Part shown: piece by piece, positions 9,317 to 29,277 of the stretch
How positions within the stretch are numbered: the stretch's first letter is position 1
Layout: every line of letters begins with the position of its first letter
IMG/VR virus record: IMGVR_UViG_3300029893_000277
Location: 1-32,841 of that record
Strand: one strand, 5' to 3'
DNA: 32,841 nt
Source: a virus
Program-made: the position numbers and the translations under genes
The notes under the pieces: model-generated
Told to the model about the DNA's origin: nothing
Databases searched by the model: none
The model's input: only the letters and a program-made list of their open reading frames with translations

Positions 9317-10228
9317 TTACACCCCCTGCCAATATTGAATTGTAATATCTACTGTTCCTGCCCCGCCCAACCAATATGATAAGGTTCCGTTAGTTCCGCT
9401 TCTAATTGCAGGGTTAAAATTCTTAGCAATGCCCCCACCAGGCGCAAAGTTACCTCTAGCCAGTACCCCAGCCCCAACTGATCCACCTACTCCTATATTC
9501 GTCACCGCTACTTCTACCGTACCTGACACAACCACAATATCCACCCCCGAGACATACTGATATGTTCCCGCTCCTGACGCGGCTACTAATGTACCCCAGA
9601 CCGCAGCTCCAGTTGTCCCCACAACGTTGTATGAAGTAGCCAAGCTGACAGGTTTGCTGTTAATTTGAACAGTTCCAGCTTGAATGGTTCCAGCATTGTG
9701 AATTTGGGCAACGTTAGCAAGAGATCCGGTTGTGATAGTACCAGTGGTTAGATTAAGGGTTGGCAACGTCCCTACTGAGACTTGCGGGAGAGTTCCAACA
9801 GAAATTTGAGGGATGGTTCCTACTGAGACTTGGGGGAGGGCAGCGATTGTGCCCGCATTATGGACTTTAGCAATATTAGCAAGTGAACCAGTGGTAATAG
9901 TTCCTGTGGTTAAGTTTAGAGTGGGTAATGTTCCTATTGATACTTGGGGTAGTGCTGCAATTGTTCCAGCGTCGTGCACCTTGGCAATATTAGCCAATGA
10001 TCCAGTAGTAACAGTTCCGGTTGTAACATTGATGGTTGGAAGAGTACCAACAGAAACCTGAGGTAACGCTCCGACTGTGACAGTCCCAGACTCAATCGTT
10101 CCGATATTCCCAGCCCTAGTTAATAGGGCGATCGTTCCACTTTCAGCTTGAACATGCTGCACTTCACCATCGCCAGTGGTGGTGGTTTTGATAGTTGTCT
10201 GTGTTCCTTGCGTTATTACTACTCCCAT
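9317..10228 (-). CDS. Fibre-like structural protein with 38-residue repeats
   Basis: A 303-aa protein. After a 50-residue N-terminal region there are three imperfect copies of a 38-residue unit (residues 54-91, 92-129 and 130-181, the last with about 16 extra residues), each of the form ALPQVSVGTLPT, NLTTGTITTGSLAN, IAKVHNAGTI. Such short-period Gly/Thr/Val repeats form the shaft of trimeric beta-structured fibres. The C-terminal 110 residues are a Gly-rich beta domain ending in TVDITIQYWQGV, probably the distal knob or a head-decoration module. The high Ser/Thr content makes the shaft a candidate for glycosylation. It ends 1 nt before the DUF2341/LamG gene. Confidence 0.6.
   Translation of the reverse strand: MGVVITQGTQTTIKTTTTGDGEVQHVQAESGTIALLTRAGNIGTIESGTVTVGALPQVSVGTLPTINVTTGTVTTGSLANIAKVHDAGTIAALPQVSIGTLPTLNLTTGTITTGSLANIAKVHNAGTIAALPQVSVGTIPQISVGTLPQVSVGTLPTLNLTTGTITTGSLANVAQIHNAGTIQAGTVQINSKPVSLATSYNVVGTTGAAVWGTLVAASGAGTYQYVSGVDIVVVSGTVEVAVTNIGVGGSVGAGVLARGNFAPGGGIAKNFNPAIRSGTNGTLSYWLGGAGTVDITIQYWQGV
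9686..10069. repeat. Tandem coding repeats of about 114 bp
   Basis: Three imperfect direct repeats of about 114 bp within the fibre gene. The same codon blocks for GTLPT, TTGTITTGSLANIA and HNAGTIAALPQVS recur, with silent differences between copies. The third copy carries an extra internal duplication of the QVSVGT(L/I)PQ block. This is a likely site of repeat-number variation. Confidence 0.8.
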
Positions 10229-10424: not shown

Positions 10425-10721
10425 TTAGTCCCACAAAATGGTGACTACTGGAGTGCCGGTTGCCTGATATACCAAACCATGTTTGAGATTGGCGTTTACC
10501 TCTACAAACTGAGGAATACTGGTAGTAGGTAAACCAAACGAGACGACCTGGGAAGTTGCAGTTGTACCAGTTGTACTGGCTGCATCATGAAGGTTGATCG
10601 TTCCCACATAAGTGCCGGGAATGACCACCCCATAAAGCTTAGCGTGTCTATCTGTGATTACCGCTGTGCCCACACCACCAGAAACAGCCGTCCATTGATA
10701 ACCCTGTTCTCTTGAAGACAT
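10425..10721 (-). CDS. Hypothetical beta-rich virion protein (98 aa)
   Basis: A 98-aa Gly/Thr/Val-rich protein with alternating hydrophobic residues (VIPGTYVGTINLHDA, then VVSFGLPTT) and the ending TPVVTILWD. It looks like a small beta-sandwich, perhaps a decoration or fibre-attachment subunit. It is the first gene after a strong terminator and so probably begins a separate tail transcript. No Shine-Dalgarno is visible before the ATG (the leader is almost pure A/T). Confidence 0.5.
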   Translation of the reverse strand: MSSREQGYQWTAVSGGVGTAVITDRHAKLYGVVIPGTYVGTINLHDAASTTGTTATSQVVSFGLPTTSIPQFVEVNANLKHGLVYQATGTPVVTILWD

Positions 10722-10741: not shown

Positions 10742-10766
10742 AAAAAAAGAACCTGTTAAGGTTCTT
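10742..10766 (-). terminator. Intrinsic terminator after the glycosyltransferase operon
   Basis: On the minus strand AAGAACC, a 6-nt loop (TTAACA) and GGTTCTT form a perfect 7-bp stem running into a tract of seven T. It ends the FkbM-GroES-GroEL-glycosyltransferase transcript and separates it from the tail genes. Confidence 0.85.
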
Positions 10767-10814
10767 CTGTTTCCTCTCGGCTGCCCTGTATGTCAGCTTA
10801 CTTAAATAAGGGTA

Positions 10815-12044
10815 TCACTGATTTGTTTCTTCTGCAAGTTCTTTTTCTAACTCACTCAAAAACGGCATCCACTGACTCTCAACCAAAGTGTCTATATTGT
10901 AATTATCAAGCACATTTTTTCTAGCAGCAGTTGCAATCTTCTTTCTACTCTTCTTGACCGCCTTATATGCCTCCTCCATTTTCTGATACAAACTATCCAC
11001 ATTGGGCGGGTAAACATATCCATTTAAGTTGCGCCAAAAACCTTTATCTGTCTCACAAATAAACCCAGTCTTTCCTTCCTTCACCAGCTCAGGCATTGAG
11101 TGACACCGGTTGCCAATAGGTGGTACTCCACAAGCCTGTGACTCAATCATACCCATTCCAAAACCCTCGGTCATTGATGGATTTAAATAAACATCAAATG
11201 AATTGATTAACTCAGCGATCACATGAGAGTCAGAAGCAAAAGTCGCGGCATAAGAGTTCATAAACATTATTTTGTCGGTCACCTTCAAATATCTAGCATA
11301 ATCAGCAATGGGGAACATGGTTGGTGATTGTTGTTGATTGTGGAAAAATAGATAGGAGTTTGGATGTTCGTCATTAAATTTCTTAAATGCTTCAAGCACC
11401 TGTTGAAACGCTTTTCTAGGTGGATTTTCTTTGTTAGCCGCTACCATACCAAAAACAAAACCGTCTTGTGGGATTCCAAACTTAGACCTCATCTTATTTT
11501 TGTCCATTGGCTTGAAGATACTGGTGTCAATACCTTCATAAATCATATGCGAGGCAAAACCCTCCCTTTCCAGGGCTAGTTGACCAAACTTAGAGAAGGT
11601 TATGATCTTATGTGCGTATCTTAGGTTGTTGAGGATTGATGGCACCACGGGCTCTTGGTCAATTGGAAGATATGGGATAAATTTAATACCCAGTTTAGTT
11701 AAATTTTCCAGGTATTGTGGAGCAAGAGAGAACAGATCAAGCATGGTAAAAGCCACTTGGATACCGTTGTGTCTTGAGTGTTCCACTAAAGCGTCTCCTC
11801 CGTAAGGCTCTGCCATTTTTGGATATACCTTTAACTTAGTTCCCCTAAATCTATCGTCTAGTAAATCCTCACCGTGCATCCATGTGTGGTAACCATCAAC
11901 ACCAAAAAAACCAATACACGAAAAATCGTATCCCCTTTTTAGTAATCTAAATAACAAATCTCTTGTGAACACAGCGTACCCACTGTTTGTGTTTGGTGCG
12001 TTACTTAACCAAGTATATTTTATTTTGTTAGGTTTTTTAGCCAT
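10815..12044 (-). CDS. GT4-type (GT-B fold) glycosyltransferase
   Basis: A 409-aa protein with the two Rossmann-like halves of the GT-B fold. The N-terminal acceptor half has the SGYA segment at 21-24, typical of GT4 enzymes that bind near the sugar nucleotide. The C-terminal half begins near VFGMVAANKENPPRKAF (197-213, with R210-K211 in the diphosphate-binding area) and contains the retaining-GT E-x7-E motif EGFGMGMIE (E293, E301). Length is normal for the family. It overlaps the upstream GT-A gene by 25 nt and is the last gene before a terminator. Donor and acceptor are unknown; a GDP-sugar made by the phage's own operon at 24809-29073 is an inference. No membrane anchor is seen, so it acts in the cytoplasm. 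Confidence 0.85.
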   Translation of the reverse strand: MAKKPNKIKYTWLSNAPNTNSGYAVFTRDLLFRLLKRGYDFSCIGFFGVDGYHTWMHGEDLLDDRFRGTKLKVYPKMAEPYGGDALVEHSRHNGIQVAFTMLDLFSLAPQYLENLTKLGIKFIPYLPIDQEPVVPSILNNLRYAHKIITFSKFGQLALEREGFASHMIYEGIDTSIFKPMDKNKMRSKFGIPQDGFVFGMVAANKENPPRKAFQQVLEAFKKFNDEHPNSYLFFHNQQQSPTMFPIADYARYLKVTDKIMFMNSYAATFASDSHVIAELINSFDVYLNPSMTEGFGMGMIESQACGVPPIGNRCHSMPELVKEGKTGFICETDKGFWRNLNGYVYPPNVDSLYQKMEEAYKAVKKSRKKIATAARKNVLDNYNIDTLVESQWMPFLSELEKELAEETNQ

Positions 12045-12766
12045 GTGGCGACCTTTGGACTAAATCTTATTGAAAAATTCATCTTGTTAGGAACATTACC
12101 ACCAGCCTCATGCCAACAGACTATTTGCTTATCTTCATCCTGAGGCCATTCTCCTTTGGGTAAAATTAATTTGTTTTTAACCAACTTCATTTGCGGCTCG
12201 TAACCCTTGGCAACTAGACCGTGCCATTTGTGGTCTGAGTCTCTATCTAAAAATTTAACCTTCCATGGTCCCCAAAAAATAATGTTGTTAAGTAAGTCCT
12301 GCTCTCTATACTGGAAAGAATCAAAACGGGAACTTAAACACATACTAAGCCAAAACTTTACAAATTTGATGTTTTTCATTACCACAAAGCCGCAGTTTTG
12401 ATACTCAAGAGGACCAATTCCTTGTAGTTGCACCACTAGTTTATTCATCTCTCTGGGATTGCTATTATGTACCGTCGCCACATCAAAATCCCCCTCCCAT
12501 ACATGACTGATATCTCCGGTAATCACCATGTCCGCATCTAGCTTAATCACAGTATCGTATCCCTGCTCCATTAAGTAATTGGCGAAATATGGTGTCGCTC
12601 TATAGAAAATGTTTGGATCATTAGTTTGTTTGATTTGCTCTGGGCCAACTATCGAGAACTCTAAATCTGGATGAAATTTGGCCAGTGAGTTCTTTAGCCC
12701 TTGGGCATATTTTAAATTTTGTGGATCACCTGCAACTGTAAAGGCAATTACTTTATTTTGTTTCAT
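12020..12766 (-). CDS. GT8-like (GT-A fold) glycosyltransferase
   Basis: A 248-aa protein. The N-terminal strand-helix-strand (KVIAFTVAGD, then GLKNSLAKFHP) is followed by the metal/nucleotide-binding DxD motif in KLDADMVITGD (D77, D79), and later by NCGFVVMKN (124-132), REQDLLNN (154-161) and CWHEAGG (217-223), whose His fits the second metal ligand of GT8 glycogenin/galactosyltransferase-like enzymes. The length is compact but complete. It overlaps GroEL by 14 nt and the GT4 gene by 25 nt, so the two transferases are translated together with the chaperonin. Substrates cannot be told from sequence. Confidence 0.75.
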   Translation of the reverse strand: MKQNKVIAFTVAGDPQNLKYAQGLKNSLAKFHPDLEFSIVGPEQIKQTNDPNIFYRATPYFANYLMEQGYDTVIKLDADMVITGDISHVWEGDFDVATVHNSNPREMNKLVVQLQGIGPLEYQNCGFVVMKNIKFVKFWLSMCLSSRFDSFQYREQDLLNNIIFWGPWKVKFLDRDSDHKWHGLVAKGYEPQMKLVKNKLILPKGEWPQDEDKQIVCWHEAGGNVPNKMNFSIRFSPKVATWLKNLTK

Positions 12767-14357
12767 GTTCTTTATATGGCTGGCTAACTAGTGTCTTGGT
12801 GGTGATAGCCATTACAGCCACACTCACTGCGTTCTCAATAGCGCATCTTTCTACTTTAACGGGATCAATGATACCAGACTTGATCATGTCCTTTACCTTG
12901 CCATCATTCACGTCAATAGCCTTAGGGTACTCAATGGGAGAAATCAACCCAAGACTCTCTGCATACTCAAATCCGCTATTTTCTATTAAGACCCTAAACG
13001 GCCTTTTAGTTGCTTGACGCAAGATATCAGCACCAGTTGTTTTGGGCCAAAAATCTTGTTGAGCTAGATACATCAAGGTAGACTGTCCTCCGGCAACTAT
13101 ACCTTCCTCAACGGCTGCTCTACATGCTGCCACTGCGTCCTTAAGTCTTTCTTTTTTATCCGCTGTTTCAGTTTCAGTTGTTGCCCCAACCCAGATAGTT
13201 GCCATTCCACCAACTAATTTAGCTCTCCTCTCTTCTTTAATCTCCTTATCATATTCAGTGTTAGCTATCTTGATCTGCCCCTCAAGCTCCTTTACACGGC
13301 TTTTCACGGCACCCTCACGGCCTTTTCCACCCTGAATGATGGTTTTATCCCTATCAGCAATTACTTTCTCTGCTTTACCTAGTTCTTCCATCCTAACTGA
13401 CTTTAAGTCTCGACCACTATCAGCTCTAATTACAGTACCACCAACTACCACAGCCAAGTCTTCCAACTCATCCAACCTTCTTGCTCCGTAGGCCGGTGCT
13501 TGTACCACCAGAGACCTAAATGGTAAATCTTCCCTCAAGTGATTAATGACAACAGTATGGAGTGCAGACTCGTGAACCTCACCAATGATAACCAAATTGG
13601 CCTCGACCTTCTTTTCCTGGCAGAACTTAGCGAAGTTGTTTAAGAAATCAATGATCTGATACGCATGGTTTGCCTTAATATCGGTGAGTAAAATAAATGG
13701 ATTTTCTACAACAGCCTCGGCCGTGTTGTGATCGGTTACAAAAGCATCAGAGCTGGTAGCCCAACCTCGATCAAACTCTAAACCATCTTTATACTCAACA
13801 TAAGTATCATAAGTTTTTCCTTCCTCGATCCTGATCACCCCATCTTTTCCTACTTTCTCAAAAATGCTGGCAATTAACTCTCCAGTCTCTTCACTGGCTG
13901 ATGATATGGTAGCGACTCTTTTAATGTCCTCATGTCCATTAATTGGTTGACTTAGTTGTTTTAACTGGTCTATCAATATTTTCGACGCCTTCTCTATTTC
14001 ATCTTTTAAGGTCATGGCATTTTTACCAGCAACAATATTCTCAAAAGAGCTGTTAATCAAGCTTTGAGCAATAATTGTGGAGGTAGTTGTGCCGTCACCA
14101 GCTGATATTTCTGTCTGGATAGCTGCTTCTTTTAACAGTTGCGCTCCCATATCCTCGAAGTGGTCGAATAAGTCAATGCTCTTGGCAACATTAGCTCCAT
14201 CATGAATGATTTTAGGCACACCGTCTGGTTGATTGATGGCTACATTCCAAGACTTAGGGCCTAAGGTACTGCTGACAGCGTCAGCCACAATATTCATGCC
14301 CTTGATGAGCTTAGATCTAACTCTCTTTTCTTTGATGACTTCTGATGGAAACCTCAT
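12753..14357 (-). CDS. groEL: GroEL-type chaperonin (Cpn60)
   Basis: A 534-aa chaperonin covering all three domains. The equatorial ATP site is intact: LGPKSWNV (32-39), HDGANVA (52-58) and GDGTTT (87-92), while the C-terminal DAVAACRAAVEEGIVAGG block holds the conserved hydrolytic Asp (the D398 equivalent) and its helix. The apical region contains the LEFDRGWATS segment. Differences from the E. coli protein (548 aa) are the W in LGPKSW, where the family usually has GR, and the absence of the hydrophobic Gly-Gly-Met C-terminal tail, replaced by a charged SQPYKEHETK. The gene overlaps groES (ATGA) and the GT-A gene. Phage chaperonins are known to fold capsid proteins; that role here is inferred. 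Confidence 0.95.
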   Translation of the reverse strand: MRFPSEVIKEKRVRSKLIKGMNIVADAVSSTLGPKSWNVAINQPDGVPKIIHDGANVAKSIDLFDHFEDMGAQLLKEAAIQTEISAGDGTTTSTIIAQSLINSSFENIVAGKNAMTLKDEIEKASKILIDQLKQLSQPINGHEDIKRVATISSASEETGELIASIFEKVGKDGVIRIEEGKTYDTYVEYKDGLEFDRGWATSSDAFVTDHNTAEAVVENPFILLTDIKANHAYQIIDFLNNFAKFCQEKKVEANLVIIGEVHESALHTVVINHLREDLPFRSLVVQAPAYGARRLDELEDLAVVVGGTVIRADSGRDLKSVRMEELGKAEKVIADRDKTIIQGGKGREGAVKSRVKELEGQIKIANTEYDKEIKEERRAKLVGGMATIWVGATTETETADKKERLKDAVAACRAAVEEGIVAGGQSTLMYLAQQDFWPKTTGADILRQATKRPFRVLIENSGFEYAESLGLISPIEYPKAIDVNDGKVKDMIKSGIIDPVKVERCAIENAVSVAVMAITTKTLVSQPYKEHETK

Positions 14358-14650
14358 TCTATTATTGCCAATAAATCATTAAGGTTAACGAGGAGTAGCT
14401 TTTTCCCTTCATGATCTACCTCTTGGTTGACCCATTTCTTGTATACAACCACCTTAGATTTAGACACCTGATCCCAAACAGGCAACTTAATGGTATCTGT
14501 CTTGACAAAATTACCAACCGCCAACACCTTACCCTTGCTTGGCTTGTCCTTCTCCGTCTCTGGAACGTAAAAACCACCAGGAGTCTTAGTCTCGTCCTCA
14601 ATTGGTTCTATCAATACGTATCCTGGTAGTGGAATTATTTTCTTTTCCAT
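14354..14650 (-). CDS. groES: GroES-type co-chaperonin (Cpn10)
   Basis: A 98-aa, full-length co-chaperonin. It has the N-terminal IIPLPGYVLIEPIEDE strand pair, a mobile loop of normal length (about residues 18-32, ETKTPGGFYVPETEK) and the C-terminal VNLNDLLAIIE strand. The canonical loop IVL tripeptide that docks into GroEL reads as GFYV here, so the pair may be co-adapted. The stop overlaps the groEL start by ATGA, and its start lies 16 nt inside the end of an FkbM methyltransferase gene, so it is translationally coupled on both sides. A dedicated GroES separates this phage from those that borrow the host's. Confidence 0.93.
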   Translation of the reverse strand: MEKKIIPLPGYVLIEPIEDETKTPGGFYVPETEKDKPSKGKVLAVGNFVKTDTIKLPVWDQVSKSKVVVYKKWVNQEVDHEGKKLLLVNLNDLLAIIE

Positions 14651-15390
14651 GCTTTAAAAATTGTTGACACGTCAAAAGTATATTGTTTAGTCTTGTTAGT
14701 AGCCAAATTCTGATAAACAAACATCCTCCGATAGTTTGGCGAAGGTATTTTAACAAATTCGGTCGTATACCCCCATTCTTCCAAGATTGAAGGAATGATC
14801 TCGGGAAAACCACCGTTGTTCTGGTAGTGTGACTCACCAACAATACAGTCTATTTTTTTACTAACTTCACCAAAGTCATCATCCGGGAAAAGGATATACT
14901 CTGACTCTTCCACATCTATTTTTAAAACATCAACATGCTTTATCTTCGCCATTTTAAAGAAGGTCGATGGCTTAACGCAATCAATTGCGTCAGAGGCATC
15001 ATCGTTAGACCTAGCCCAAAATGTTTGTGGCAATTGTCCTGCCACACGGGAATAAAACATGTCTTTTCCGTCTCCATTAGCCCAAGCTACGTTATATGTC
15101 TTCACGCCGGGAAGGTTACCAATATTTTTAACCAAAGTCTTGAAGACTTCCTTATTTGGCTCAACTGCATGTATATTCTTTACTCCTAAAATATAGTGGA
15201 AATAGATAGTAGCCAAACCAGTATTAGCTCCAAGGTCAATATACACATCCTTTTTACCATCCGCAAAAGCTCCGTAATGATTTTGTTGGAATATCTCCTT
15301 TACCTGATCTTGCAACTCTCTGTCAGAAATTACATATTTTATCTTAATATCATGGGGAAGCCTGGAATCTTTGAGGGTGTAAGTTTTCAT
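14635..15390 (-). CDS. FkbM-family SAM-dependent methyltransferase (first copy)
   Basis: A 251-aa Rossmann-fold methyltransferase. Motif I is VYIDLGANTGLATIYF (49-64), the acidic end of strand 2 is HAVEPN (E77), and the FkbM signature is DVLKIDVEESEYILF (154-168). FkbM enzymes O-methylate sugar or polyketide hydroxyls, commonly in polysaccharide and glycoprotein clusters. The gene overlaps the second FkbM gene by ATGA and groES by 16 nt. The last 30 residues (after FVYQNLAT) are a lysine-rich extension ending in FKAWKRK. Sugar O-methylation is inferred from the adjacent glycosyltransferases. Confidence 0.85.
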   Translation of the reverse strand: MKTYTLKDSRLPHDIKIKYVISDRELQDQVKEIFQQNHYGAFADGKKDVYIDLGANTGLATIYFHYILGVKNIHAVEPNKEVFKTLVKNIGNLPGVKTYNVAWANGDGKDMFYSRVAGQLPQTFWARSNDDASDAIDCVKPSTFFKMAKIKHVDVLKIDVEESEYILFPDDDFGEVSKKIDCIVGESHYQNNGGFPEIIPSILEEWGYTTEFVKIPSPNYRRMFVYQNLATNKTKQYTFDVSTIFKAWKRK

Positions 15391-16058
15391 CTACTGGCAA
15401 CTATTATTTTTGCAGTGCTTTGGGCTTGGTTAACGGTATATCCTCTCATTTTAAGTACGTCAACCAACTGATTGGCGTTGCGACCACTCCAATCATGGTA
15501 TTCAGTAATGATCGTCTTAATCTTGGGTGCTAACTCCTTGAAATCAACACCGGAGAATAACTCAAACTCAGTCCCTTCAATGTCTACTTTCATCAGATCC
15601 ACCTCTTTTATATTTTGTTCCTCAAATAAAGTGGTCAGGGTTATAGCCTGCACTTTTTCTGGTGGCATTTGCTGGGTATTCACAGCCTGATGAAGGCTAT
15701 ACATAGTTCTATTCTCATTGTGATAAAACTCATAATCACCTTCTTTGATGTAAATTGCCTTGTTTATCGGTGTTACGTTCTTAATTTGATTAAACTTCAG
15801 CATATTAACCATGACCGCAAAATGCTCTTTGGCTGGTTCAAGTGTTATCACCTTCTTTGCGTATCTAGAGAAATAATATGAAGTCAGCCCTATATTTCCA
15901 CCAATATCAACAATTGTGTCTAGGTTCTTACCCTCCACGAATGGGGCGAAGATCCTATCTCTATAAATCTCAGACATTTGATGGCCGACAAAGTTGGCTT
16001 CAATCGGTGGTTGGAAAAATATCCCATGAATAGGAACCGGTTCGTTTCCCTTCTGCAT
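15387..16058 (-). CDS. FkbM-family SAM-dependent methyltransferase (second copy)
   Basis: The longest frame starts at a GTG at 16112, but those first 18 codons are made of a terminator hairpin. The ATG at 16058, reached by an extended -10 promoter, gives a 223-aa protein. Motif I is TIVDIGGNIGLTSYYF (48-63), the strand-2 acid is in TLEPAKEHF (E74), and the signature is VDLMKVDIEGTEFELF (153-168). It shares the fold with the neighbouring FkbM protein, but the two differ along most of their length, so this is not a recent tandem duplication. It heads the FkbM-FkbM-GroES-GroEL-GT-GT operon. No Shine-Dalgarno precedes the ATG; a leaderless mRNA is possible. Confidence 0.8.
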   Translation of the reverse strand: MQKGNEPVPIHGIFFQPPIEANFVGHQMSEIYRDRIFAPFVEGKNLDTIVDIGGNIGLTSYYFSRYAKKVITLEPAKEHFAVMVNMLKFNQIKNVTPINKAIYIKEGDYEFYHNENRTMYSLHQAVNTQQMPPEKVQAITLTTLFEEQNIKEVDLMKVDIEGTEFELFSGVDFKELAPKIKTIITEYHDWSGRNANQLVDVLKMRGYTVNQAQSTAKIIVASR

Positions 16059-16065
16059 TGGCGAT

Positions 16066-16074
16066 ATTGTACCA
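16066..16074 (-). promoter_or_regulatory. Extended -10 promoter for the FkbM/chaperonin/GT operon
   Basis: The minus strand reads TGGTACAAT, an extended -10 (TGn plus TACAAT), nearly identical to the TGGTATAAT at the heptose operon. Initiation about 7 nt downstream falls at 16058-16059, on the ATG itself. No good -35 is present because that position is inside the terminator stem. Confidence 0.5.
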
Positions 16075-16100
16075 CAAAGAAAGCCCCCATTGCTGGGGGC
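16074..16100 (-). terminator. Intrinsic terminator after the beta-helix gene
   Basis: On the minus strand GCCCCCA, a 4-nt loop and TGGGGGC form a GC-rich 7-bp stem followed by TTTCTTTG. It follows the stop at 16118 by 18 nt and ends the scaffold/coat transcript. The promoter of the next operon starts immediately after its U-rich tract. Confidence 0.8.
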
Positions 16101-16117
16101 CTTCGAAGCCACATTCC

Positions 16118-17155
16118 TTAAGCAGCGGGGATCGGGGCAGTACCCACGATTCCAATGCCTGGATTGTGCATTCCAGCTCCAGCAGTACCAGCTTGGATCG
16201 GTGATACTAATAACTCAGTATCGGTTCCAATAGCGGTGACATTGATTGCTCTCTCGTCAACCGAGAAAACAGGATTGTCAACCAAAAGTGCGCCAGTTAT
16301 AGCAGAAGCAGGGGCAGTACCAGCCTCTACATTGATGTATCTATTACCCTCAAGCAAGGTGAACTCAGTTGCACCCGTTCCAAGAACAATGAAACCATCA
16401 GTAGTTGCCTGTGCGTCAATAACAAAAGTGTTACGTTTCAAAGTCATTCTGGTTGGTCCGGCGGTACCAGCCGTTACAAGAACAGCAGATGGTGCCCAGT
16501 TCCAGTTACCAATCCAAGAATCCTCGATAGTAATACCTTTAATACCTCCAGCCACATTACCAGAAATACTCACTAGAGGAGCAGTTCCACCAGCTGCGGC
16601 AGCTTGGGTGTTCTCGACATGAACATCATGAATCCACAAGTCATGAGGAGTACCAGTTGAGGCAGTACCAATACGCATGTATGCAGTAATAGTACCGTTG
16701 GCAGAAGTACCAGAAGTTCCTAAGAACTTAAGGCCTCCAATCTCAACTCCAGCAGAGGTTATATTAACCAGCTCGGTGTCAACCGTAGAAGTGGTAGCAA
16801 AACCTTCAAAAGTCAATCCATCATAACCCATCGGGGTTGGTTTGTTACCAACTCCAAGGATGTGGACTCGTCTCTTATTGACATTCACACCCTCACTTAA
16901 AGGCCTAACAGTACCACTATCAGTAGGAATAACTAAAACGTAGTCGTTGTTGTCATTCTTAGCAGCGTCAATACCAGCCTGGAGTGAGGTTTTCACCACA
17001 CCACGACCGAGAAGGTCAGTGCGGTCTCTGTGTTTAGAGTCAGAAGAGCTAGAAACCCAGTAAACATCACCGTTGGTGATAATACCAGCATTCCTAATTT
17101 CACTTAGAGGATCGATTTTATATTGGTTTAAATTTCGAAAAGGATCTCTACTCAT
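16118..17155 (-). CDS. Right-handed beta-helix virion protein
   Basis: The longest frame starts at a GTG at 17167, but that GTG is part of the Shine-Dalgarno GGGAGGTGA. The ATG at 17155, nine bases further on, is clearly the start, giving 345 aa. After an N-terminal region (VYWVSSSSDSKHRDRTDLLGRG, about residues 32-53) the protein shows the repeating short-strand pattern of a pectate-lyase-like beta-helix (about 90-300), with stacked motifs such as VHILGVGNKP, LKFLGTSGT, IEDSWIGNWNW and LKRNTFVID. Such proteins serve as tailspikes, head fibres or decoration proteins. It lies directly after the coat gene, as decoration proteins often do. No catalytic acids of a depolymerase can be assigned by eye. 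Confidence 0.65.
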   Translation of the reverse strand: MSRDPFRNLNQYKIDPLSEIRNAGIITNGDVYWVSSSSDSKHRDRTDLLGRGVVKTSLQAGIDAAKNDNNDYVLVIPTDSGTVRPLSEGVNVNKRRVHILGVGNKPTPMGYDGLTFEGFATTSTVDTELVNITSAGVEIGGLKFLGTSGTSANGTITAYMRIGTASTGTPHDLWIHDVHVENTQAAAAGGTAPLVSISGNVAGGIKGITIEDSWIGNWNWAPSAVLVTAGTAGPTRMTLKRNTFVIDAQATTDGFIVLGTGATEFTLLEGNRYINVEAGTAPASAITGALLVDNPVFSVDERAINVTAIGTDTELLVSPIQAGTAGAGMHNPGIGIVGTAPIPAA

Positions 17156-17309
17156 TTTGTCCGTCACCTCCCTTCATCACTCTATGTTTTCTAATAGTCC
17201 TGAGCATAATTATTTTTTGTCGTGGCGTGAGACCCAAACCTCTAGCCAATTCACTAAATTTAAGTGGTTGATATCTTCTTCTCTTTGCATTCTTCTTTCT
17301 TCTTGGCAT
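17148..17309 (-). CDS. Small, very basic protein (53 aa)
   Basis: A 53-aa frame missed by length cut-offs. It starts with ATG directly after the TAA of the 128-aa gene (17310) and ends at TAG 17148, overlapping the ATG of the beta-helix gene by 8 nt. It begins MPRRKKNAKRRRYQP, continues with KFSELARGLGLTPRQKIIMLRTIRKHR, a possible helix-turn-helix-like segment, and ends GGDGQNE. It fills what would otherwise be a 154-nt gap, keeps the tight overlaps of its neighbours, and contains the Shine-Dalgarno of the next gene in its last codons. The strongly basic N-terminus suggests binding to DNA or RNA, for example as a minor packaged protein. Function unknown. Confidence 0.65.
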   Translation of the reverse strand: MPRRKKNAKRRRYQPLKFSELARGLGLTPRQKIIMLRTIRKHRVMKGGDGQNE

Positions 17310-17696
17310 TTAATCCATGTAACCATATTGACTTCTAAGCTTGGCCGATTTGGCACTTTTAACTAATTTTTGTTTTAACTGTTCTCCCAAGTCAGAGAAC
17401 CGAAGCTTTTTAATAATCTGCTCTCCTCTCAACCTAGCCAGTTCATGTTCACCCAAATACTTATCTAGTTTTGAGGTGGTTTTTCCAGAAGCGACAGACT
17501 TAAAGTATCTAGCTAGTATCTCACTCCTTTCTTTAATACCATCTTCAGACTCGCGCTCTTTTCTACTAGCGAGTCTTTCGTTTGCCTTAATGACACTGTC
17601 AATTACTTCCTGATTATGTTTTGGGTCAAAATCAGGATCAGGCTCGACTGGAACAAAGCCCCAATCTGATTGGTCAACTTTTAACTTGTTATCCAT
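17310..17696 (-). CDS. Hypothetical helical protein after the coat gene (128 aa)
   Basis: The longest frame begins at 17861 inside the coat gene; its first 55 codons come from that gene and from a structured spacer. The ATG at 17696 (MDNKLKVDQSDWGF) is preferred, giving 128 aa. Residues 1-25 are acidic and Pro-rich (VEPDPDFDP). The rest is charged and helical with many K, E and R (about 30-120), ending RSQYGYMD. No family is recognised. It lies between coat and beta-helix genes, where small head-completion or decoration genes are common. The start codon has no Shine-Dalgarno and sits two bases after a tRNA-like acceptor stem. Confidence 0.6.
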   Translation of the reverse strand: MDNKLKVDQSDWGFVPVEPDPDFDPKHNQEVIDSVIKANERLASRKERESEDGIKERSEILARYFKSVASGKTTSKLDKYLGEHELARLRGEQIIKKLRFSDLGEQLKQKLVKSAKSAKLRSQYGYMD

Positions 17697-17698
17697 AG

Positions 17699-17746
17699 TG
17701 GAGGGGGTGAGATTCGAACTCAAACCTACTACAGATCCATCCCTCC
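17699..17746 (-). other. tRNA T-arm/acceptor-like relic (truncated tRNA or tRNA-like element)
   Basis: On the minus strand GGAGGGATG can pair as a 6-bp acceptor stem with CCCCTCC plus discriminator A. Just inside lies a T-arm: TTGAG, the invariant-type loop TTCGAAT, and CTCAC (four of five pairs). Only 14 nt connect the acceptor 5' strand to the T-stem, so D and anticodon arms are missing and this is not a normal tRNA; acceptor and T-arm most resemble tRNA-Ser/Leu. It could be a deletion relic, an attachment-site core, or a structured leader for the gene starting at 17696. Confidence 0.55.
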
Positions 17747-17799: not shown

Positions 17800-19062
17800 T
17801 TAGTCGGACTTTTGCGTCTCACGACCGTTAGCAGCAGGAGCGCCGCAAAACATGTTAGCAAACCAGACTAGAACAGCCTGATATTGAATAGTGTTTTGCT
17901 TCCTGAGCAACGCGCCGGTATTAGGTTCTTCCATCCAGTTAGGAGCTTCGACTTGACAAATGACCCAAGACTTGAGGTTGACAATAAGAACCTCTCCATC
18001 GGGTACATCATAGTCTAGGAATACCGCAGCTCTACCAGCACCAGCCTCGAAAGCGAGACCAGACCATCCACCAACAAGTTCCAAACTATCGACGGTTCGG
18101 CGCATAGCGCTTAATACGTCTCCATATTTTTGGAATAAGGTCTTGTTAACGAAGATTGCGTAAAGATCCTCTTCTTCAGAGTATTCTTTAGCAGCTAGGT
18201 AAGAACCAGTAATCCTACTTAAAGTCAATGCTTCTGAGGATGAGCCAAATTGAGGAGTCCATCCAGTTACGTTTCTAGGAACGCCAGCATAAGTGCTCGT
18301 ACCTGTTGACGAGGACAGAGCCGCGCGCATACCCAAAAATTCACTGGTGCCAGCGCCTTCACCAGATCCGTCCATGATATAGACAGCGTCCGATGCGGCA
18401 ATGGCAGGAGCGCCGGTCATAACAACAGAGGTACCAGTTACAGAGGTAACTGTACCAAGGTCGGCACCACCAGTTCCGATACCAAGGATCTGATCAACAG
18501 CAAGATATTTCACAGGGGAAATATCGCCATTAACAGTTCCGTACCAGTCGATTGACCTACCATCGTCCAAATTAGAGTCAGGTGTTTCAAGCGCTGCAGT
18601 ACCTTCACCGACGGACCCACCAGTTGTTCTGACTTGGGATACAACACCTACACCATCAGCATAAAACTGACGGTTGATGTGCCTCATGAAGTCCTTCATT
18701 AAAGTTGTTGACTGAGAAGATAAATCAGCCGCGACAGCACCCTGGGCTGATTTGGACGCATCGATAGCAAGTTTAGTGATATCGAACGCACCAGTTACAG
18801 TTTCCACAGGGACAGTTCCGCGAGTACCTCCTCTACCTCCAGATTGGATGATGTTGTTTCCATCATCAGCTAAGTTGGCAATTCCACCGTGACGAGAAGT
18901 ATATAGCGGGAAAACAAACTCATCGTTGATGTAGTTTTCGCTACCACTTCTCCTCATTTGATCAAGCATGATCGTTTTTTTGGGGAAATTGTCTTGGATG
19001 TAAGGAAGAATAACTTCTTTTAGTGCGTAACTATATGAAGATAATTGATTAGGAGCAGCCAT
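17800..19062 (-). CDS. Major capsid (coat) protein, HK97-fold type
   Basis: A 420-aa protein with the features of a phage major coat protein. The N-arm includes SSYSYALKEVILPYIQDNF (8-26), followed by a region with FPLYTSRHGGIANLADDGNN, a spine-helix-like segment with TLMKDFMRHINRQFYADGVG (about 120-139), a Gly/Ser/Thr-rich insertion (about 180-240), and a C-terminal P-domain segment with AVFLDYDVPDGEVLIVNLKSWV and IQYQAVLVWFANMFCGAPAANG. It follows the scaffold gene, and an AAAGGGGGTGAA Shine-Dalgarno lies a few bases before the ATG, fitting high expression. The N-terminal delta domain of scaffold-embedded coats is absent, so the separate scaffold gene is consistent. Confidence 0.88.
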   Translation of the reverse strand: MAAPNQLSSYSYALKEVILPYIQDNFPKKTIMLDQMRRSGSENYINDEFVFPLYTSRHGGIANLADDGNNIIQSGGRGGTRGTVPVETVTGAFDITKLAIDASKSAQGAVAADLSSQSTTLMKDFMRHINRQFYADGVGVVSQVRTTGGSVGEGTAALETPDSNLDDGRSIDWYGTVNGDISPVKYLAVDQILGIGTGGADLGTVTSVTGTSVVMTGAPAIAASDAVYIMDGSGEGAGTSEFLGMRAALSSSTGTSTYAGVPRNVTGWTPQFGSSSEALTLSRITGSYLAAKEYSEEEDLYAIFVNKTLFQKYGDVLSAMRRTVDSLELVGGWSGLAFEAGAGRAAVFLDYDVPDGEVLIVNLKSWVICQVEAPNWMEEPNTGALLRKQNTIQYQAVLVWFANMFCGAPAANGRETQKSD

Positions 19063-24808: not shown

Positions 24809-25315
24809 CTATCTCTTCAAATTAATATAAGTTGGCCTCGGATTGGTTAAAACCTTCTCCAAAAGCTCAGGTATTTCCTCTTTTGTCTCCGGCCAATGAC
24901 TCTCAACACCACTCAACACTCTCATCACCTCTTGGTCTTCTTCCGCCCAATGAGAGAAGCCATCATGTTGATAGTCTCTATCTCTTCCCCCTCCCACCAA
25001 AACAACAGGGATCTGCTCGCTATGTAGGTAGCTTCTCACGGTCTCAAATGGCCTGTATAACAAAAACGGGGTAATCGAATAGACGATGGGTATTTTACCT
25101 TCGATAGCCATACCAACGGCCATACCAACGGCCACTTGTTCAGCAGCGCCAACATTAACAAATCTTTCTGGATAATCTTGCTGTATTGCGTCAAACATCC
25201 CAAAACCCAAGTCTGCTGTAACTACCCAAATATTTCCATTATCCTCCATCTGTTGATGGAGTTCATAAGCAAACCAACCCCTCATGCTTTCGTGTCTCGT
25301 TAGTCGTTCTTTCAT
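24809..25315 (-). CDS. Transketolase-like subunit, pyrimidine-binding (Pyr) domain only
   Basis: A 168-aa protein equal to the Pyr domain of transketolase. VTADLGFGMFDAI (32-44) and RFVNVGAAEQVAVGMAVGMA (51-70) are present; Glu59 is the residue that activates the thiamine diphosphate aminopyrimidine. The YSITPFLLYRPFETVR segment (79-94) and the DGFSHWAEEDQEVMRVL loop (118-134) also match, the latter aligning with the G-x-T-H-Q-x-x-E-D of transketolases. The third (C-terminal) domain of full transketolases is missing; split C-subunits are usually about 300 aa. The start overlaps the stop of the partner subunit (ATGA). Together they would form an active site at the subunit interface. Confidence 0.85.
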   Translation of the reverse strand: MKERLTRHESMRGWFAYELHQQMEDNGNIWVVTADLGFGMFDAIQQDYPERFVNVGAAEQVAVGMAVGMAIEGKIPIVYSITPFLLYRPFETVRSYLHSEQIPVVLVGGGRDRDYQHDGFSHWAEEDQEVMRVLSGVESHWPETKEEIPELLEKVLTNPRPTYINLKR

Positions 25316-25947
25316 GCTTTCATATAGTGAGATGATAAATCGTCAGGATATGGTTCGTTGCTTGTATGTGCCAGAACGATGTGTGGGCCCTCGGTTGTTG
25401 TGTCAAGTATCCACTTGACAGCCTCAACATCATGACCATCTACCTCCGAGACAGTATCAACAAACCCTCTTAACTGTCTTAAAAGCAACTCAATATCTGT
25501 TTTTCTATACGCTGCCCAACCATTAGCGTTAACTACCACCTTTAAGTTATCCAATCTCTGTTCTTGAGCTACTCTTAACGCCTCCCAGATACTTCCTTCG
25601 GCCATCTCTCCATCACTAACCATACAAAAAACTCTCTTCTCCCGCTGGGCTATGGCCATCCCCACTGCTATTGGCAGTCCCTGCCCCAGTGAACCAGTAG
25701 AGACATCACAGAACTCACTGTTAGCGTGAATATCTTTTCTAATGGCCTGGACCGGATCAACTAATCCTCGCTTCTCCATCACCACATAAAGGGCCAGTGC
25801 CGCATGACCATTGCTTAACACAAATCTCTCGTCCGGTTCTTTAACTTGGAAAATAGCCTCGATTGCGTCTACTGCTGATATCGTTGAGCTTAAATGAGTT
25901 AAACCTTCTTGCCTACTAATCTCAATGATTCGCTCTTTTGAGTTCAT
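25312..25947 (-). CDS. Transketolase-like subunit, thiamine-diphosphate-binding (PP) domain
   Basis: A 211-aa protein equal to the N-terminal domain of transketolase. LSNGHAALALY (44-54) holds the conserved His; STGSLGQGLPIAVGMAIA (83-100) is the family block; and the diphosphate/metal motif runs from SDGEMAEGSIWEAL (111-124) to VVNANG (138-143, Asn140), with S in place of the first G of the usual GDG. Split N-subunits are usually about 270 aa, so this is a compact form. Full reaction: transfer of a two-carbon ketol unit, for example to make sedoheptulose 7-phosphate from ribose 5-phosphate. It lies in an operon whose next steps use that compound, which supports the assignment, though other TPP-dependent ketol transfers remain possible. 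Confidence 0.85.
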   Translation of the reverse strand: MNSKERIIEISRQEGLTHLSSTISAVDAIEAIFQVKEPDERFVLSNGHAALALYVVMEKRGLVDPVQAIRKDIHANSEFCDVSTGSLGQGLPIAVGMAIAQREKRVFCMVSDGEMAEGSIWEALRVAQEQRLDNLKVVVNANGWAAYRKTDIELLLRQLRGFVDTVSEVDGHDVEAVKWILDTTTEGPHIVLAHTSNEPYPDDLSSHYMKA

Positions 25948-26713
25948 GCTCTACCATTTCTCTAATTGATTGTTCCAATGGTTTGATTGGTAGCTCTGGT
26001 ATGGTTGGCTCGACCACCCACTGATCGGTGTCGTAGCTTCTCAGTGACTCTACCAGCCTGACGTTAGCCGGTCTTCCAGTTTCTTGCTCCACCATTCTGC
26101 GAACTTGATCATTAGTATAACTGCGCCCAGAAGAGAGGTTAACTCGCTTAGACCTGTAATCACGTATATTGTCAGCCACAAAAATAAGCCCAGTAAGAAA
26201 GTCATCAACATCAATAAAGTCGTGAGTTGGTTGGGGGACAAACGGAATTTCTTCTCCATACAGACAGCTTTTAATAAGCCTTGGTATCAAACGGTGTGGT
26301 TGTTCACCAATGCCGGTCACTGTTGACGGCCTAACGACCGCTATAGGGAGATTATACTCCCTTGAGTAAAGTTGTGCCATTTCCTCCATTGCCTTTTTTG
26401 ATGCTGAGTAAAACGTCTGATGGGGGATCAGGACTGATGAAGTAGAAACTAAGACAACAGCTCTGCAATCCTCGTCAGCGTCCTGCAATAACCTTAAGTT
26501 CTCCATCACATTAACTCTGTATGTTTCTATTAGATCTTTCTGCTCGTATGAATTACCGTAAGCCGCCATACCGACATAAACATCTGCCGCCGGTGCGTTA
26601 ACCCAGTCCCGAGGAATGTTGATAACTGTGTGGCCATCACCCTCCAGCCTAGTAACTAGACGCTCACCTATAAACCCGTGAGTTCCTCTAATGGCGTAGA
26701 TTTCTTTACTCAT
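25922..26713 (-). CDS. NAD(P)-dependent sugar epimerase/dehydratase (extended SDR)
   Basis: A longer frame extends to 26752, but the ATG at 26713 has AGAGGA at a 7-nt distance and overlaps the previous stop by 8 nt, giving 263 aa. The nucleotide-binding GTHGFIG (10-16) has the G-x-x-G-x-x-G pattern. LVSTSSVL (88-95) and YSASK (102-106) supply the Ser/Thr-Tyr-Lys catalytic set, and VVRPSTVTGIG and HDFIDVDDFLTGLIFVADN match the substrate domain of GDP/UDP-sugar epimerases. In this operon it could epimerise or dehydrate a nucleotide-heptose. The protein is shorter than the usual 310 aa, mainly at the C-terminus. Substrate unknown. Confidence 0.85.
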   Translation of the reverse strand: MSKEIYAIRGTHGFIGERLVTRLEGDGHTVINIPRDWVNAPAADVYVGMAAYGNSYEQKDLIETYRVNVMENLRLLQDADEDCRAVVLVSTSSVLIPHQTFYSASKKAMEEMAQLYSREYNLPIAVVRPSTVTGIGEQPHRLIPRLIKSCLYGEEIPFVPQPTHDFIDVDDFLTGLIFVADNIRDYRSKRVNLSSGRSYTNDQVRRMVEQETGRPANVRLVESLRSYDTDQWVVEPTIPELPIKPLEQSIREMVEHELKRANH

Positions 26714-26924
26714 TGTACGTTCCTCTAGCATAGTTGGGAGTATTGCAGGCACCGCAATAGACTATCAAGTGTTCAGCTTTTATTTTTGTATAACCATTGT
26801 GAAACCTCATTACGACGAAGTCACCATCTGGCGATATTTCTCCCAAAACTGAAAGAGTCCCCAACCCCTGACACCTAGAGCAGATCACCAAGTTATTTTT
26901 TTTAACTCTTTTTAAGGCCTTCAT
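26706..26924 (-). CDS. Zinc-ribbon protein in the heptose operon (72 aa)
   Basis: A 72-aa protein with two Cys pairs, CSRC (15-18) and CGAC (57-60), separated by about 38 residues of beta-like sequence, forming a rubredoxin- or zinc-ribbon-like knuckle pair. The N-terminus is basic (KALKRVKKNN). The gene contains a run of eight A early on and overlaps the nucleotidyltransferase gene by 23 nt and the SDR gene by 8 nt. No enzyme family is recognised. It could be a regulator, a small accessory subunit or a nucleic-acid-binding protein; its conserved place in a metabolic operon would need comparison with other genomes. Confidence 0.6.
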   Translation of the reverse strand: MKALKRVKKNNLVICSRCQGLGTLSVLGEISPDGDFVVMRFHNGYTKIKAEHLIVYCGACNTPNYARGTYNE

Positions 26925-27426
26925 AATACTCTCTAGCTTTTGCTAATCTCTCCGGCGTACCAATATCCTGCCAGTAGTGTTTTTGGACAAATTTTCTTAT
27001 CATTGGTTTAAACGACTGTTTAACGTGAGTTATGCCAGTGTAAATCTTACTGTCCGGAGTATATGACATCAGCCGCCCTCCCCTATTTATCGTTGCCATC
27101 GCTGTTATATCTACATCAGTTAAAGTATCTCCGTTACAAACCACATACTCATCACCCAACCAAGGCAACAGCCGCCTTTCTGTCTCTGACTCTCCTAACA
27201 ACTCTGGTTCGTAGAAGTAAAGTAGTCTTGACCCGAAGTGTTTAACAACTTGTCTATACAAGTAGTGGACGTTAACCACAACGTCATCAATCCCGTGTCT
27301 ATGCAGATGTTCGAGTATGTGTTCAAGCACCGGCTTTCCACCAACTTCAACCAAACACTTTGGCCTAGTGAGGGTGAGTGGTCTAAGCCTAGTTCCATAC
27401 CCAGCGCATAAGACTAATGCTTTCAT
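26902..27426 (-). CDS. hddC: Sugar-phosphate nucleotidyltransferase (HddC-like guanylyltransferase)
   Basis: A 174-aa protein with the nucleotidyltransferase signature LCAGYGTRLRPLTLTRPK (6-23), the metal-binding CNGDTLTDVD (97-106, D100) and the closing HYWQDIGTPERLAKARE (150-166, D154). This is the GDP-mannose/heptose pyrophosphorylase family. Full-length relatives are about 230 aa; here the segment between about 110 and 150 is shortened. In heptose operons this enzyme activates D-glycero-D-manno-heptose 1-phosphate with GTP. It is translationally coupled (ATGA) to the kinase gene. The nucleotide specificity cannot be confirmed by eye, so the symbol is by context. Confidence 0.75.
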   Translation of the reverse strand: MKALVLCAGYGTRLRPLTLTRPKCLVEVGGKPVLEHILEHLHRHGIDDVVVNVHYLYRQVVKHFGSRLLYFYEPELLGESETERRLLPWLGDEYVVCNGDTLTDVDITAMATINRGGRLMSYTPDSKIYTGITHVKQSFKPMIRKFVQKHYWQDIGTPERLAKAREYYEGLKKS

Positions 27427-28325
27427 AGTATCCTGGTACTAACTCCCTGATAATCTATCTCAAAGTCGATCTGTTTTAAACCAATTTTCTTGATGAAATT
27501 GGCTTGCTTCTTGGGTTTAACCACAAACAATACCGTACCCCCACCTCCTGATCCGTTTAGCTTCCATCCAATTGCACCAAGCTCTTTCCCTTTGTTGATA
27601 ATCGTGTCTATTTGTTTATTACTCACTCCTTTATTTGATAGTTTTTTATGTTCCCAAGACTCTCTTAATAACCTAGCCATCCTGTCTACGTCATCTTCAA
27701 GAATAGCTGTTGCCCCATCAATAGCTTTTTGTTTAACCATTAGGAGGTGATTGAGTTGATCTGGTGCAAGTTGCATTAAGCCTTCCTGAATATCGTGGTC
27801 AGTTCTATCAATTCCAGTATGGAAAATTAAAATATTTGAGAAGATATCATGTTCGTGATTGATAGGAGTTCTGCCTACCCCGTCCTTTGAGAAATAGAAA
27901 ATACTCACACCTCCATAAACAGCTGCGTATTGATCCTGCTTGCCGCCAAACATTTTTAGTTTATTCACCTCTATATCCCAAGCTTTCTGCGCGATTTGAT
28001 CTTTACTTAATCCCCAATTATGAATTTTATTAGCAGCACCAACTAAGGCAACCACCGCAGAGGCAGACGAGCCAAGACCTGAACCGACAAAGCGAAAATC
28101 AAACGACTGATCCACATACCAATCAGACAAATTAAGGTTATCAAGAACTTCTTCAACGAAGCTATCCGTAAGTCGTCCTGGTGACTCACTGCTCAACATA
28201 AAATTTTGTCTGATATTTATAGCCATGTTTACGACAACTCCACCTTCTTTCTCAACAAACTCTCCCACATCAGTGCCGCCACCAAATAATCCAATGCGTA
28301 AAGGGGCAGAACTATGGACTATCAT
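27423..28325 (-). CDS. hddA: GHMP kinase, D-glycero-D-manno-heptose 7-phosphate kinase-like (HddA)
   Basis: A 300-aa GHMP-superfamily kinase. Motif 1 region: SSAPLRIGLFGGGTDVGEF (5-23), typical of the HddA/fucokinase branch rather than galactokinases. Motif 2: GSGLGSSAS (81-89), the ATP phosphate loop. GGKQDQYAAVYGG (127-139) is another branch-specific block. Motif 3: KLNGSGGGGTVL (255-266). All core residues are present; the length is slightly below the usual 330-340 aa. Reaction in this pathway: phosphorylation of heptose 7-phosphate at C1. Its neighbours are the isomerase, phosphatase and nucleotidyltransferase of the same route. Confidence 0.85.
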   Translation of the reverse strand: MIVHSSAPLRIGLFGGGTDVGEFVEKEGGVVVNMAINIRQNFMLSSESPGRLTDSFVEEVLDNLNLSDWYVDQSFDFRFVGSGLGSSASAVVALVGAANKIHNWGLSKDQIAQKAWDIEVNKLKMFGGKQDQYAAVYGGVSIFYFSKDGVGRTPINHEHDIFSNILIFHTGIDRTDHDIQEGLMQLAPDQLNHLLMVKQKAIDGATAILEDDVDRMARLLRESWEHKKLSNKGVSNKQIDTIINKGKELGAIGWKLNGSGGGGTVLFVVKPKKQANFIKKIGLKQIDFEIDYQGVSTRIL

Positions 28326-28612
28326 AGGAAATACTTTGATATATCATTCCAATTAGTAAACCTGATTGCCCTATCGTCAATAATTATTCTAGTATGATTT
28401 TTCTTGATATTGGTGACTTCGATGTTTTGTGGAAAACCGTGCAGTCTCAACCAGTCTTTTATGACACCATGGTCTACTTCTTCTCTTGCAGTTAGTATGT
28501 AAACCTCGTGTCCTTTTTCAACGAGCGCCTTTAACACATGCCTGGCTCCTGGTAAGGGTAACCTTGTCTTCTCATTAGCTAAGGTGGCGTCAAAATCAAC
28601 GGCAATGATCAT
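28322..28612 (-). CDS. Small HAD-superfamily phosphatase, candidate heptose bisphosphate phosphatase
   Basis: A 96-aa minimal HAD hydrolase. Motif I is AVDFDATL (D6 nucleophile, D8 acid/base), motif II is ILTAR (T41), motif III is Lys in IKKNHT (70-73), and motif IV is IIDDRAIRF (D79-D80). There is no cap domain. The classical heptose bisphosphate phosphatase GmhB is about 180 aa with zinc-binding Cys residues that are absent here, so this is probably an analogue rather than GmhB itself. Its place between isomerase and kinase genes, with ATGA overlaps on both sides, is the evidence for acting on heptose 1,7-bisphosphate. Confidence 0.7.
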   Translation of the reverse strand: MIIAVDFDATLANEKTRLPLPGARHVLKALVEKGHEVYILTAREEVDHGVIKDWLRLHGFPQNIEVTNIKKNHTRIIIDDRAIRFTNWNDISKYFL

Positions 28613-29073
28613 GCGTAGTACTGATCAATTATTCGACAAATATTGTGGATCATCTCGAGGTGTTTTTCTTGTAACTCAGCTGTACTAGCAAAGTATTCAG
28701 TTTTGGTTGGAAATTCTATGACTGCCATTTTTAGTCTTTTGGCCGTTTTAATTGCCTCTAGACAGTCTTGTGAGTTTCCAGATGTAGATAGTACCACCAG
28801 CACGTCTCCAGAGCGTCCTAGCGCCTCTAGCTGTCGTGAAAACACATATTCAAACCCATCATCATTACCTATTGCCGTTAGCGCAGAAGTATCAGTGGTT
28901 AAGGCGATAATAGGGAGTGCTTTTCTTGGTTTCTCAAAATGACCCACCAGTTCGGCCGCAAAGTGTTGGGCTTGAGCTGCACTGCCACCGTTACCTATTA
29001 CGTATGCAAAATTGCCCCTATCAAAACAAGCAATTAAATCATTAGCTATTTCATTTACGGCCATTTTGTCCAT
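28609..29073 (-). CDS. gmhA: Phosphoheptose isomerase (sedoheptulose 7-phosphate isomerase)
   Basis: A 154-aa SIS-domain protein. The phospho-sugar loop and family signature are clear: VIGNGGSAAQAQHFAAELVGHF (25-46, catalytic-type Glu41), LPIIALTTDTSALTAIGND (53-71), VFSRQLEALGRSGDVL (77-92), STSGNS (96-101) and the C-terminal QEKHLEMIHNIC (135-146), whose His138 fits the catalytic His of GmhA. It is about 40 residues shorter than E. coli GmhA, mainly in the N-terminal helix. It converts sedoheptulose 7-phosphate to D-glycero-D-manno-heptose 7-phosphate. First gene of the minus-strand operon, 8 nt from the predicted transcription start; the in-frame ATG at codon 4 is an alternative start. Confidence 0.9.
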   Translation of the reverse strand: MDKMAVNEIANDLIACFDRGNFAYVIGNGGSAAQAQHFAAELVGHFEKPRKALPIIALTTDTSALTAIGNDDGFEYVFSRQLEALGRSGDVLVVLSTSGNSQDCLEAIKTAKRLKMAVIEFPTKTEYFASTAELQEKHLEMIHNICRIIDQYYA

Positions 29074-29077
29074 ATTC

Positions 29078-29117
29078 TTTTGCTCGGATTATACCATCCT
29101 TTTTTAAGCGAGCAAAA
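29078..29117. promoter_or_regulatory. Perfect inverted repeat around the heptose-operon promoter (operator-like)
   Basis: TTTTGCTCG at 29078-29086 and CGAGCAAAA at 29109-29117 form a perfect 9-bp inverted repeat with a 22-nt spacer. The arms cover the transcription start and the -35, and the -10 lies between them. Centre-to-centre distance is 31 nt, about three helical turns, as expected for a dimeric or looping repressor. Confidence 0.6.
29088..29115 (-). promoter_or_regulatory. Promoter of the heptose/late operon
   Basis: The minus strand has an extended, perfect -10, TGGTATAAT (29096-29088), with TTGCTC (29115-29110) as a weak -35 at 16 nt. Transcription would begin near 29081, leaving a leader of about 8 nt before the gmhA ATG. 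It is the best sigma70 match in the window. Confidence 0.7.
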
Positions 29118-29276: not shown

Positions 29277-29277
29277 C

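Follow-up and report, generated by a model that had tools for sequence, protein, structure and literature searches.

A glycosyltransferase pair carried among the virion genes of an uncultured podovirus-like phage lineage points to probable virion glycosylation with exchangeable, phage-made sugars

We analyzed the 32,841-base virus record IMGVR_UViG_3300029893_000277 (the whole of this stretch is referred to here as the window), and in particular an operon on its minus strand that encodes two methyltransferases, a GroES-GroEL chaperonin and two glycosyltransferases (GTs). The minus-strand late block runs in the order terminase, portal, scaffold-like, major capsid and then tail-side genes. As the preliminary description of this DNA had claimed, the operon lies inside this structural block, flanked by the major capsid gene (17800-19062, minus strand; PHROG major head protein) and the tail-side genes. 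The description of the six genes as one overlapping operon also stands, with every family supported by Pfam, and its theme of glycan transfer and sugar methylation is supported. The operon is real and well bounded, and throughout the lineage its GT pair forms part of the virion gene module. In order of transcription, the genes are:

15387-16058, minus strand: FkbM-family (Methyltransf_21) sugar O-methyltransferase 1, the first gene of the operon (Pfam PF05050, 1.1e-15)
14635-15390, minus strand: FkbM-family methyltransferase 2 (Pfam PF05050, 1.9e-11; TIGR01444, 56.8 bits, above cut-off)
14354-14650, minus strand: groES co-chaperonin, 98 aa (Pfam PF00166, 9.8e-18, 64.4 bits against 21.1)
12753-14357, minus strand: groEL group I chaperonin, 534 aa (Pfam PF00118, 4.8e-47, 161 bits)
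12020-12766, minus strand: GT8-type glycosyltransferase, GT-A fold, DxD motif D77/D79, H219 (Pfam PF01501, 7.4e-07)
10815-12044, minus strand: GT4-type glycosyltransferase, GT-B fold, E293-x7-E301, R210/K211 (Pfam PF00534, 1.4e-17; PHROG 2170)

Neighboring genes overlap by 4-25 bases, and inspection of the window found no Shine-Dalgarno sequence before any of the six, which suggests translational coupling. The GT4 scores 64.2 bits against PF00534 (cut-off 26.4), and its E-x7-E motif is well kept among 29 sequences (E293 in 93%, E301 in 100%), as are R210 and K211. The GT8 has a weak sequence score, 29.4 bits against PF01501 with a cut-off of 24.3, and a GT8 search of annotated phages gave no match. 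However, residues D77, D79, N101, N124, E155, Q156 and H219 are invariant in 28 sequences, and the AlphaFold model (predicted local distance difference test, pLDDT, 92) matches LgtC, GlyE, glycogenin and a capsid glycosyltransferase of PBCV-1. The modeled GT-A fold, together with the invariant DxD and His, thus confirms the GT8 class despite the weak score; these fold matches speak to fold and class, not to the acceptor.

To place the operon among related phages, we used sister records from IMG/VR, where a search with the portal protein gave 8 loci and one with a portal alignment gave 80. In the long records, open reading frames (ORFs) were called and then labeled with profiles made from the window proteins. 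Two records were left out, one as a duplicate (G032, of G043) and one that ends inside groEL (G019), and 28 remained, the window included. Five records have matching ends and lengths of 36.6-43.2 kb; by this measure, the window probably represents about three quarters of a genome. Each of the 28 distinct records that span the site has both GT4 and GT8, located between the capsid and tail genes and on the strand of the capsid gene; one GT8 (G034) was not in the ORF calls and was recovered by tblastn, and in G037 the order is reversed, with GT8 after GT4. The pair is likewise found in 7 of 7 site-covering sister loci within 10 kb of portal, on contigs that overlap partly with the 28. This constancy of position suggests that coating the virion with sugar is probably fundamental to the construction of phages in this family. 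HNH-like ORFs, as judged from sequence, are common between GT8 and GT4 in the sisters; they recur there in L110, L115, L118, L139 and L143, in the manner of homing endonucleases in conserved genes.

The GT4 identity matrix correlates with that of the portal protein (Mantel rho 0.38, p 0.001), close to the value for the capsid protein (0.44). Most donor genes, i.e., those for the sugar nucleotides described below, do not follow the portal (GmhA 0.01, nucleotidyltransferase 0.02, transketolase part TKN 0.05). That GT4 and the virion genes co-vary with the portal and most donor genes do not fits a fixed transfer machine working with exchangeable sugars. A portal search of annotated phages gave no match, and when portal and capsid alignments were run against 84,980 prokaryote genomes in two scans, neither a prophage nor a binned relative turned up.

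The sugar-donor cassette of the window (24809-29073, minus strand) encodes a GmhA-like protein, a HAD protein, an HddA-like kinase, a short nucleotidyltransferase, an epimerase and a split transketolase. Donor genes occur in 25 records, mostly beside the terminase gene, which bears out the predicted co-occurrence of the GT operon with sugar-donor genes. Their content varies. GmhA-, kinase- and nucleotidyltransferase-like genes occur together in 14 records, and six records (G017, G047, G050, G051, G053 and G055) have the epimerase and split transketolase without these three. In four others (G002, G036, G034 and G039), an acetolactate-synthase-like thiamine pyrophosphate (TPP) enzyme, a DegT/RfbH-like protein and an epimerase replace the transketolase (assigned by profile in G002 and G039, by sequence likeness in G036 and G034), and the first two of these could possibly serve branched-sugar synthesis. 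In gene content, the window cassette resembles the bacterial GDP-heptose pathway (GmhA-HddA-HddC), whereas its best matches score below the curated cut-offs: 149.9 against 276 for GmhA, 142.7 against 600 for HddA and 70.8 against 300 for HddC, the short nucleotidyltransferase being closer to MurU (93.4). The product would probably be a heptose or a heptose-derived sugar. Of the complete nucleotide-heptose system proposed at the outset, heptose therefore survives as the best guess, and completeness does not, since the proteins fall below the curated cut-offs and the cassette varies between sisters. We also considered the split transketolase as the supplier of sedoheptulose 7-phosphate for GmhA. 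This role is disfavored, given that the six sisters named above retain the epimerase-TKN-TKpyr arrangement, and the enzyme may not be one of heptose-precursor synthesis. In the window (24809-25947) and in the sisters, an NAD epimerase always stands alongside it, whether GmhA and kinase genes are present or not.

A second variable region, which we term the tailoring slot, lies between the gene after the capsid gene (beta-helix or 225-aa protein) and GT4. Sister records carry 0-3 FkbM copies; G009 and G030 have epimerases in the slot, and G044 an ORF that resembles a hexapeptide acetyltransferase by its sequence. In the complete sister G037, the slot holds a methyltransferase, a radical SAM protein, a split TPP enzyme, a cytidylyltransferase, a dehydratase, RfbH, a NeuB-like protein and an epimerase. 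This content resembles the bacterial CDP-dideoxyhexose/yersiniose-type pathway (RfbF-RfbG-RfbH plus TPP enzyme), and RfbH (592 bits against a cut-off of 423) is the only G037 donor protein above its curated cut-off. Between capsid and GT4, a complete 42.7-kb phage (L133:4493-14455) carries a true RfbH, CDP-sugar and NeuB-like genes and two radical-SAM-like genes. The six genes of the window are thus not the one fixed functional set that they had been taken for: GT8-GT4 is the lineage-wide core, and FkbM and groES/groEL are optional inserts. The first FkbM methyltransferase of the window scores 94 bits against NCBIfam TIGR01444 (cut-off 37.7).

The chaperonin genes encode a full-length Cpn60 that retains the ATPase motifs GDGTTT and DG and lacks the GGM tail, and a GroES in which the alignment shows a mobile-loop-like segment, TKTPGGFYVPE. 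GroEL scores 493 bits against NCBIfam PRK00013 (cut-off 397) and falls below the equivalog cut-off of TIGR02348 (486 against 582), which indicates a divergent GroEL and not a recent copy of a bacterial orthologue; no GroEL in the annotated phage collection, whether bacterial-type or not, shares more than about 40% identity with it. A search of viral contigs with the single GroEL protein found nothing. The groES-groEL pair was found in 10 records. GroES accompanies groEL in 9 of these, the contig of the tenth (G010) stopping just past groEL, and groEL adjoins GT8 except in G010, where a small ORF lies between them. Mapped on the portal tree, groEL requires about 2 changes against a shuffled mean of 8.5, and the sister-phage GroELs are monophyletic (support 100/100) in a tree that does not include phiEL and OBP. 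Together, these results indicate that groEL was acquired roughly once and then passed on mostly by descent, and the GT pair is older than that acquisition. The phage GroES-GroEL is probably a working, late-expressed group I chaperonin, and its clients would probably be capsid or tail proteins or the enzymes of glycosylation. Separately, eight loci (L186, L190, L193, L220, L222, L232, L235 and L241) combine groES-groEL with a weak GT4 profile match about 4 kb downstream, and in L003:3472-7791 groEL is flanked by a protein ending in the N-terminal half of a GT4 and by a separate GT4 C-terminal half.

The boundaries of the operon, and the corresponding site before the donor cassette, contain the following signals:

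16079-16104, minus strand: terminator-like hairpin at the end of the upstream gene (-23.7 kcal/mol with flanks, z -4.3)
16066-16074, minus strand: extended -10 promoter box TGGTACAAT, 7 nt upstream of the first operon ATG (16058)
10745-10768, minus strand: terminator hairpin with T-run, 3′ of the GT4 gene (z -2.9)
29088-29096, minus strand: extended -10 box TGGTATAAT, preceding the sugar-nucleotide cassette

An operon with its own promoter and two terminators had been described. Both hairpins are real, and the extended -10 box shows comparative enrichment; on the other side, a two-hexamer promoter scan of the window was at chance level (16 found against 17.3 expected). The box TGGTACAAT lies immediately 3′ of the strong hairpin, and a longer frame starting at a GTG at 16112 would cross that hairpin, which makes ATG 16058 the credible operon start. 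With the box this close to the ATG and no Shine-Dalgarno sequence, a leaderless start is likely. The motif TGGTAYAAT has only two copies in the window, the second preceding the gmhA-type operon at 29073; as at least two matches arise in 13% of shuffles, the argument rests on their position, not their number. At the same boundary in the sisters, TATAAT or extended -10 boxes were found in 13 of 26 cases against 10% of random windows (p=3e-7), and stable hairpins are also enriched, with the relatedness of the phages making both p values optimistic.

We consider it probable that the operon, as read from its genes, serves glycan transfer within a machine that glycosylates the virion with phage-made, exchangeable sugars. 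The cassette would make a nucleotide-activated sugar, one GT would attach the first sugar, in the cytosol, to a virion surface protein, the other would extend it, and the FkbM enzymes would cap the glycan by O-methylation. Such a sugar coat may shield the particle or alter its binding, and swapping of cassettes would change the “glycotype” of the virion. Candidate acceptors are the major capsid protein and the products of three further genes:

9317-10228, minus strand: Thr-rich repeat, fiber-like protein, from a family of 36 members (Thr 16% against 7% background)
10425-10721, minus strand: small beta-sandwich (jelly-roll-like) protein, the first gene after GT4 and widely conserved in the sisters
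16118-17167: beta-helix protein

The model of the jelly-roll-like protein (pLDDT 85; S+T 22%, Thr 15%) has Foldseek matches to uncultured Caudovirales proteins. It and the Thr-rich fiber family are leads only. A wider claim, which we put forward tentatively at slightly under an even chance, is that the whole uncultured podovirus-like lineage has a near-essential virion glycosylation core, in which a fixed GT8-GT4 pair works with exchanged cassettes and to which one clade has added a dedicated GroES-GroEL that folds the machine or its targets.

Several observations weigh against virion glycosylation. FkbM is absent in some sisters, the Mantel correlation of GT8 with the portal is weak (0.20, p 0.023), and a promoter before the operon could time it separately from the structural genes. 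Thr-richness, common among beta-rich virion proteins, proves little. In addition, the closest GT8 structures include the lipo-oligosaccharide enzyme LgtC besides protein-modifying enzymes, and the GT8 and GT4 classes also build lipopolysaccharide (LPS) cores, for which they are typical families. These last points would suit an alternative in which a glycan of the host surface (e.g., the LPS core, at the inner leaflet) is altered by the GTs and methyltransferases late in infection, blocking superinfection or freeing progeny from receptor debris; heptose-type donor genes fit inner-core chemistry, and LPS-core GTs require no flippase of their own. We nevertheless regard this alternative as unlikely, as the GT pair is fixed among virion genes in all 28 records and a homologous GT4 adjoins the capsid gene in a Pontimonas phage, whose actinobacterial host is not known to have LPS. 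There is also no gtr-like polytopic membrane protein: a simple hydropathy scan found no protein with at least four predicted membrane helices in the window or in the five end-matching genomes, which argues against gtr-type O-antigen conversion. We favor the virion over the host surface as the target, a choice inferred from the position of the operon, its co-inheritance with virion genes and the GT4 homologues that two unrelated phages carry downstream of the capsid gene.

Somewhat less probable again is a loose assembly of accessory genes with no shared function, in which the GTs act on some target and groES-groEL, as an unrelated passenger, aids general folding. The gain and loss of groES-groEL and FkbM independently of the GT pair and the shuffling of donor genes are in keeping with this, as is the survey of groEL neighborhoods at 80 loci in other viral contigs, where most lack an adjoining GT8 or FkbM and both adjoin groEL in sister phages only. 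Yet a universal GT pair is no occasional passenger, the slot repeatedly receives sugar-tailoring genes, and in the unrelated phage MW202497, too, groEL lies between GT genes inside the head module. Some phage GTs are known to hypermodify DNA, using diverse glycans (Pyle et al. 2024, as cited in PMC12619734), and the pair might by analogy glycosylate modified phage DNA bases and so guard against restriction. This we hold to be very improbable: thymidylate synthase/hydroxymethylase homologues (PF00303) were absent from 13 records, five of them with matching ends, in a search that detected its positive control, which argues against DNA modification, and the GTs stand among late virion genes, not replication genes.

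Virion glycosylation is known from few phage systems. In mycobacteriophages, capsid and tail-tube subunits of the virion are glycosylated (Freeman et al. 2023, Cell Host Microbe, as cited in PMC12619734). The system described here differs in belonging to a podovirus-like lineage with a universal GT8-GT4 pair at one site, in its phage-made, changeable donors, FkbM methylation and chaperonin, and in being known at the level of genes. The GT8 model has one of its best fold matches in a virus-encoded GT-A enzyme of major capsid glycosylation in chlorovirus PBCV-1 (2p6w/2p72/2p73); this is a giant virus of algae, and at 9-11% identity the likeness is one of fold class only. Pontimonas phage phiPsal1, with its actinobacterial host, and Microcystis phage Mae-JY09 encode a GT4 homologue (26-28% identity over 97%) that follows the major capsid gene immediately or one gene further on; in phiPsal1, a methyltransferase and a GT2 are present there as well. 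These are different phage types, and their annotations show neither a GT8 nor an FkbM operon or groEL at this site. In Tetrasphaera phage TJE1, which is actinobacterial, nucleotidyltransferase, kinase, epimerase, methyltransferase and GT4 genes lie upstream of terminase (L160:1920-7263). The GroEL-type chaperonins of phages phiEL and OBP function without a co-chaperonin (PMC5934643). In contrast, the lineage described here has genomes of about 43 kb, its GroELs form their own clade, and groES directly precedes groEL, which argues against independence from a co-chaperonin of the phiEL/OBP type.

Transfer enzymes as constant as the capsid gene, combined with serotype-like swapping of sugars, would reveal a selected trait, either shielding or receptor binding and escape, and two GTs with their donor genes make a simple, testable module. 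The operon is also a further instance of a phage GroEL-GroES pair, here in a small phage and beside virion genes. Elsewhere in the window, where Rfam and tRNA scans were empty, a segment between the capsid gene and the next gene (17690-17745, minus strand) resembles the 3′ half of a tRNA, with a TTCGAAT loop and a CCCTCCA end, and was not called by ARAGORN or Rfam. Finally, on the plus strand, TTGACA-17-TAAACT (29230-29278) lies immediately 5′ of an ATG at 29278 and is a probable leaderless early promoter for the rightward genes.

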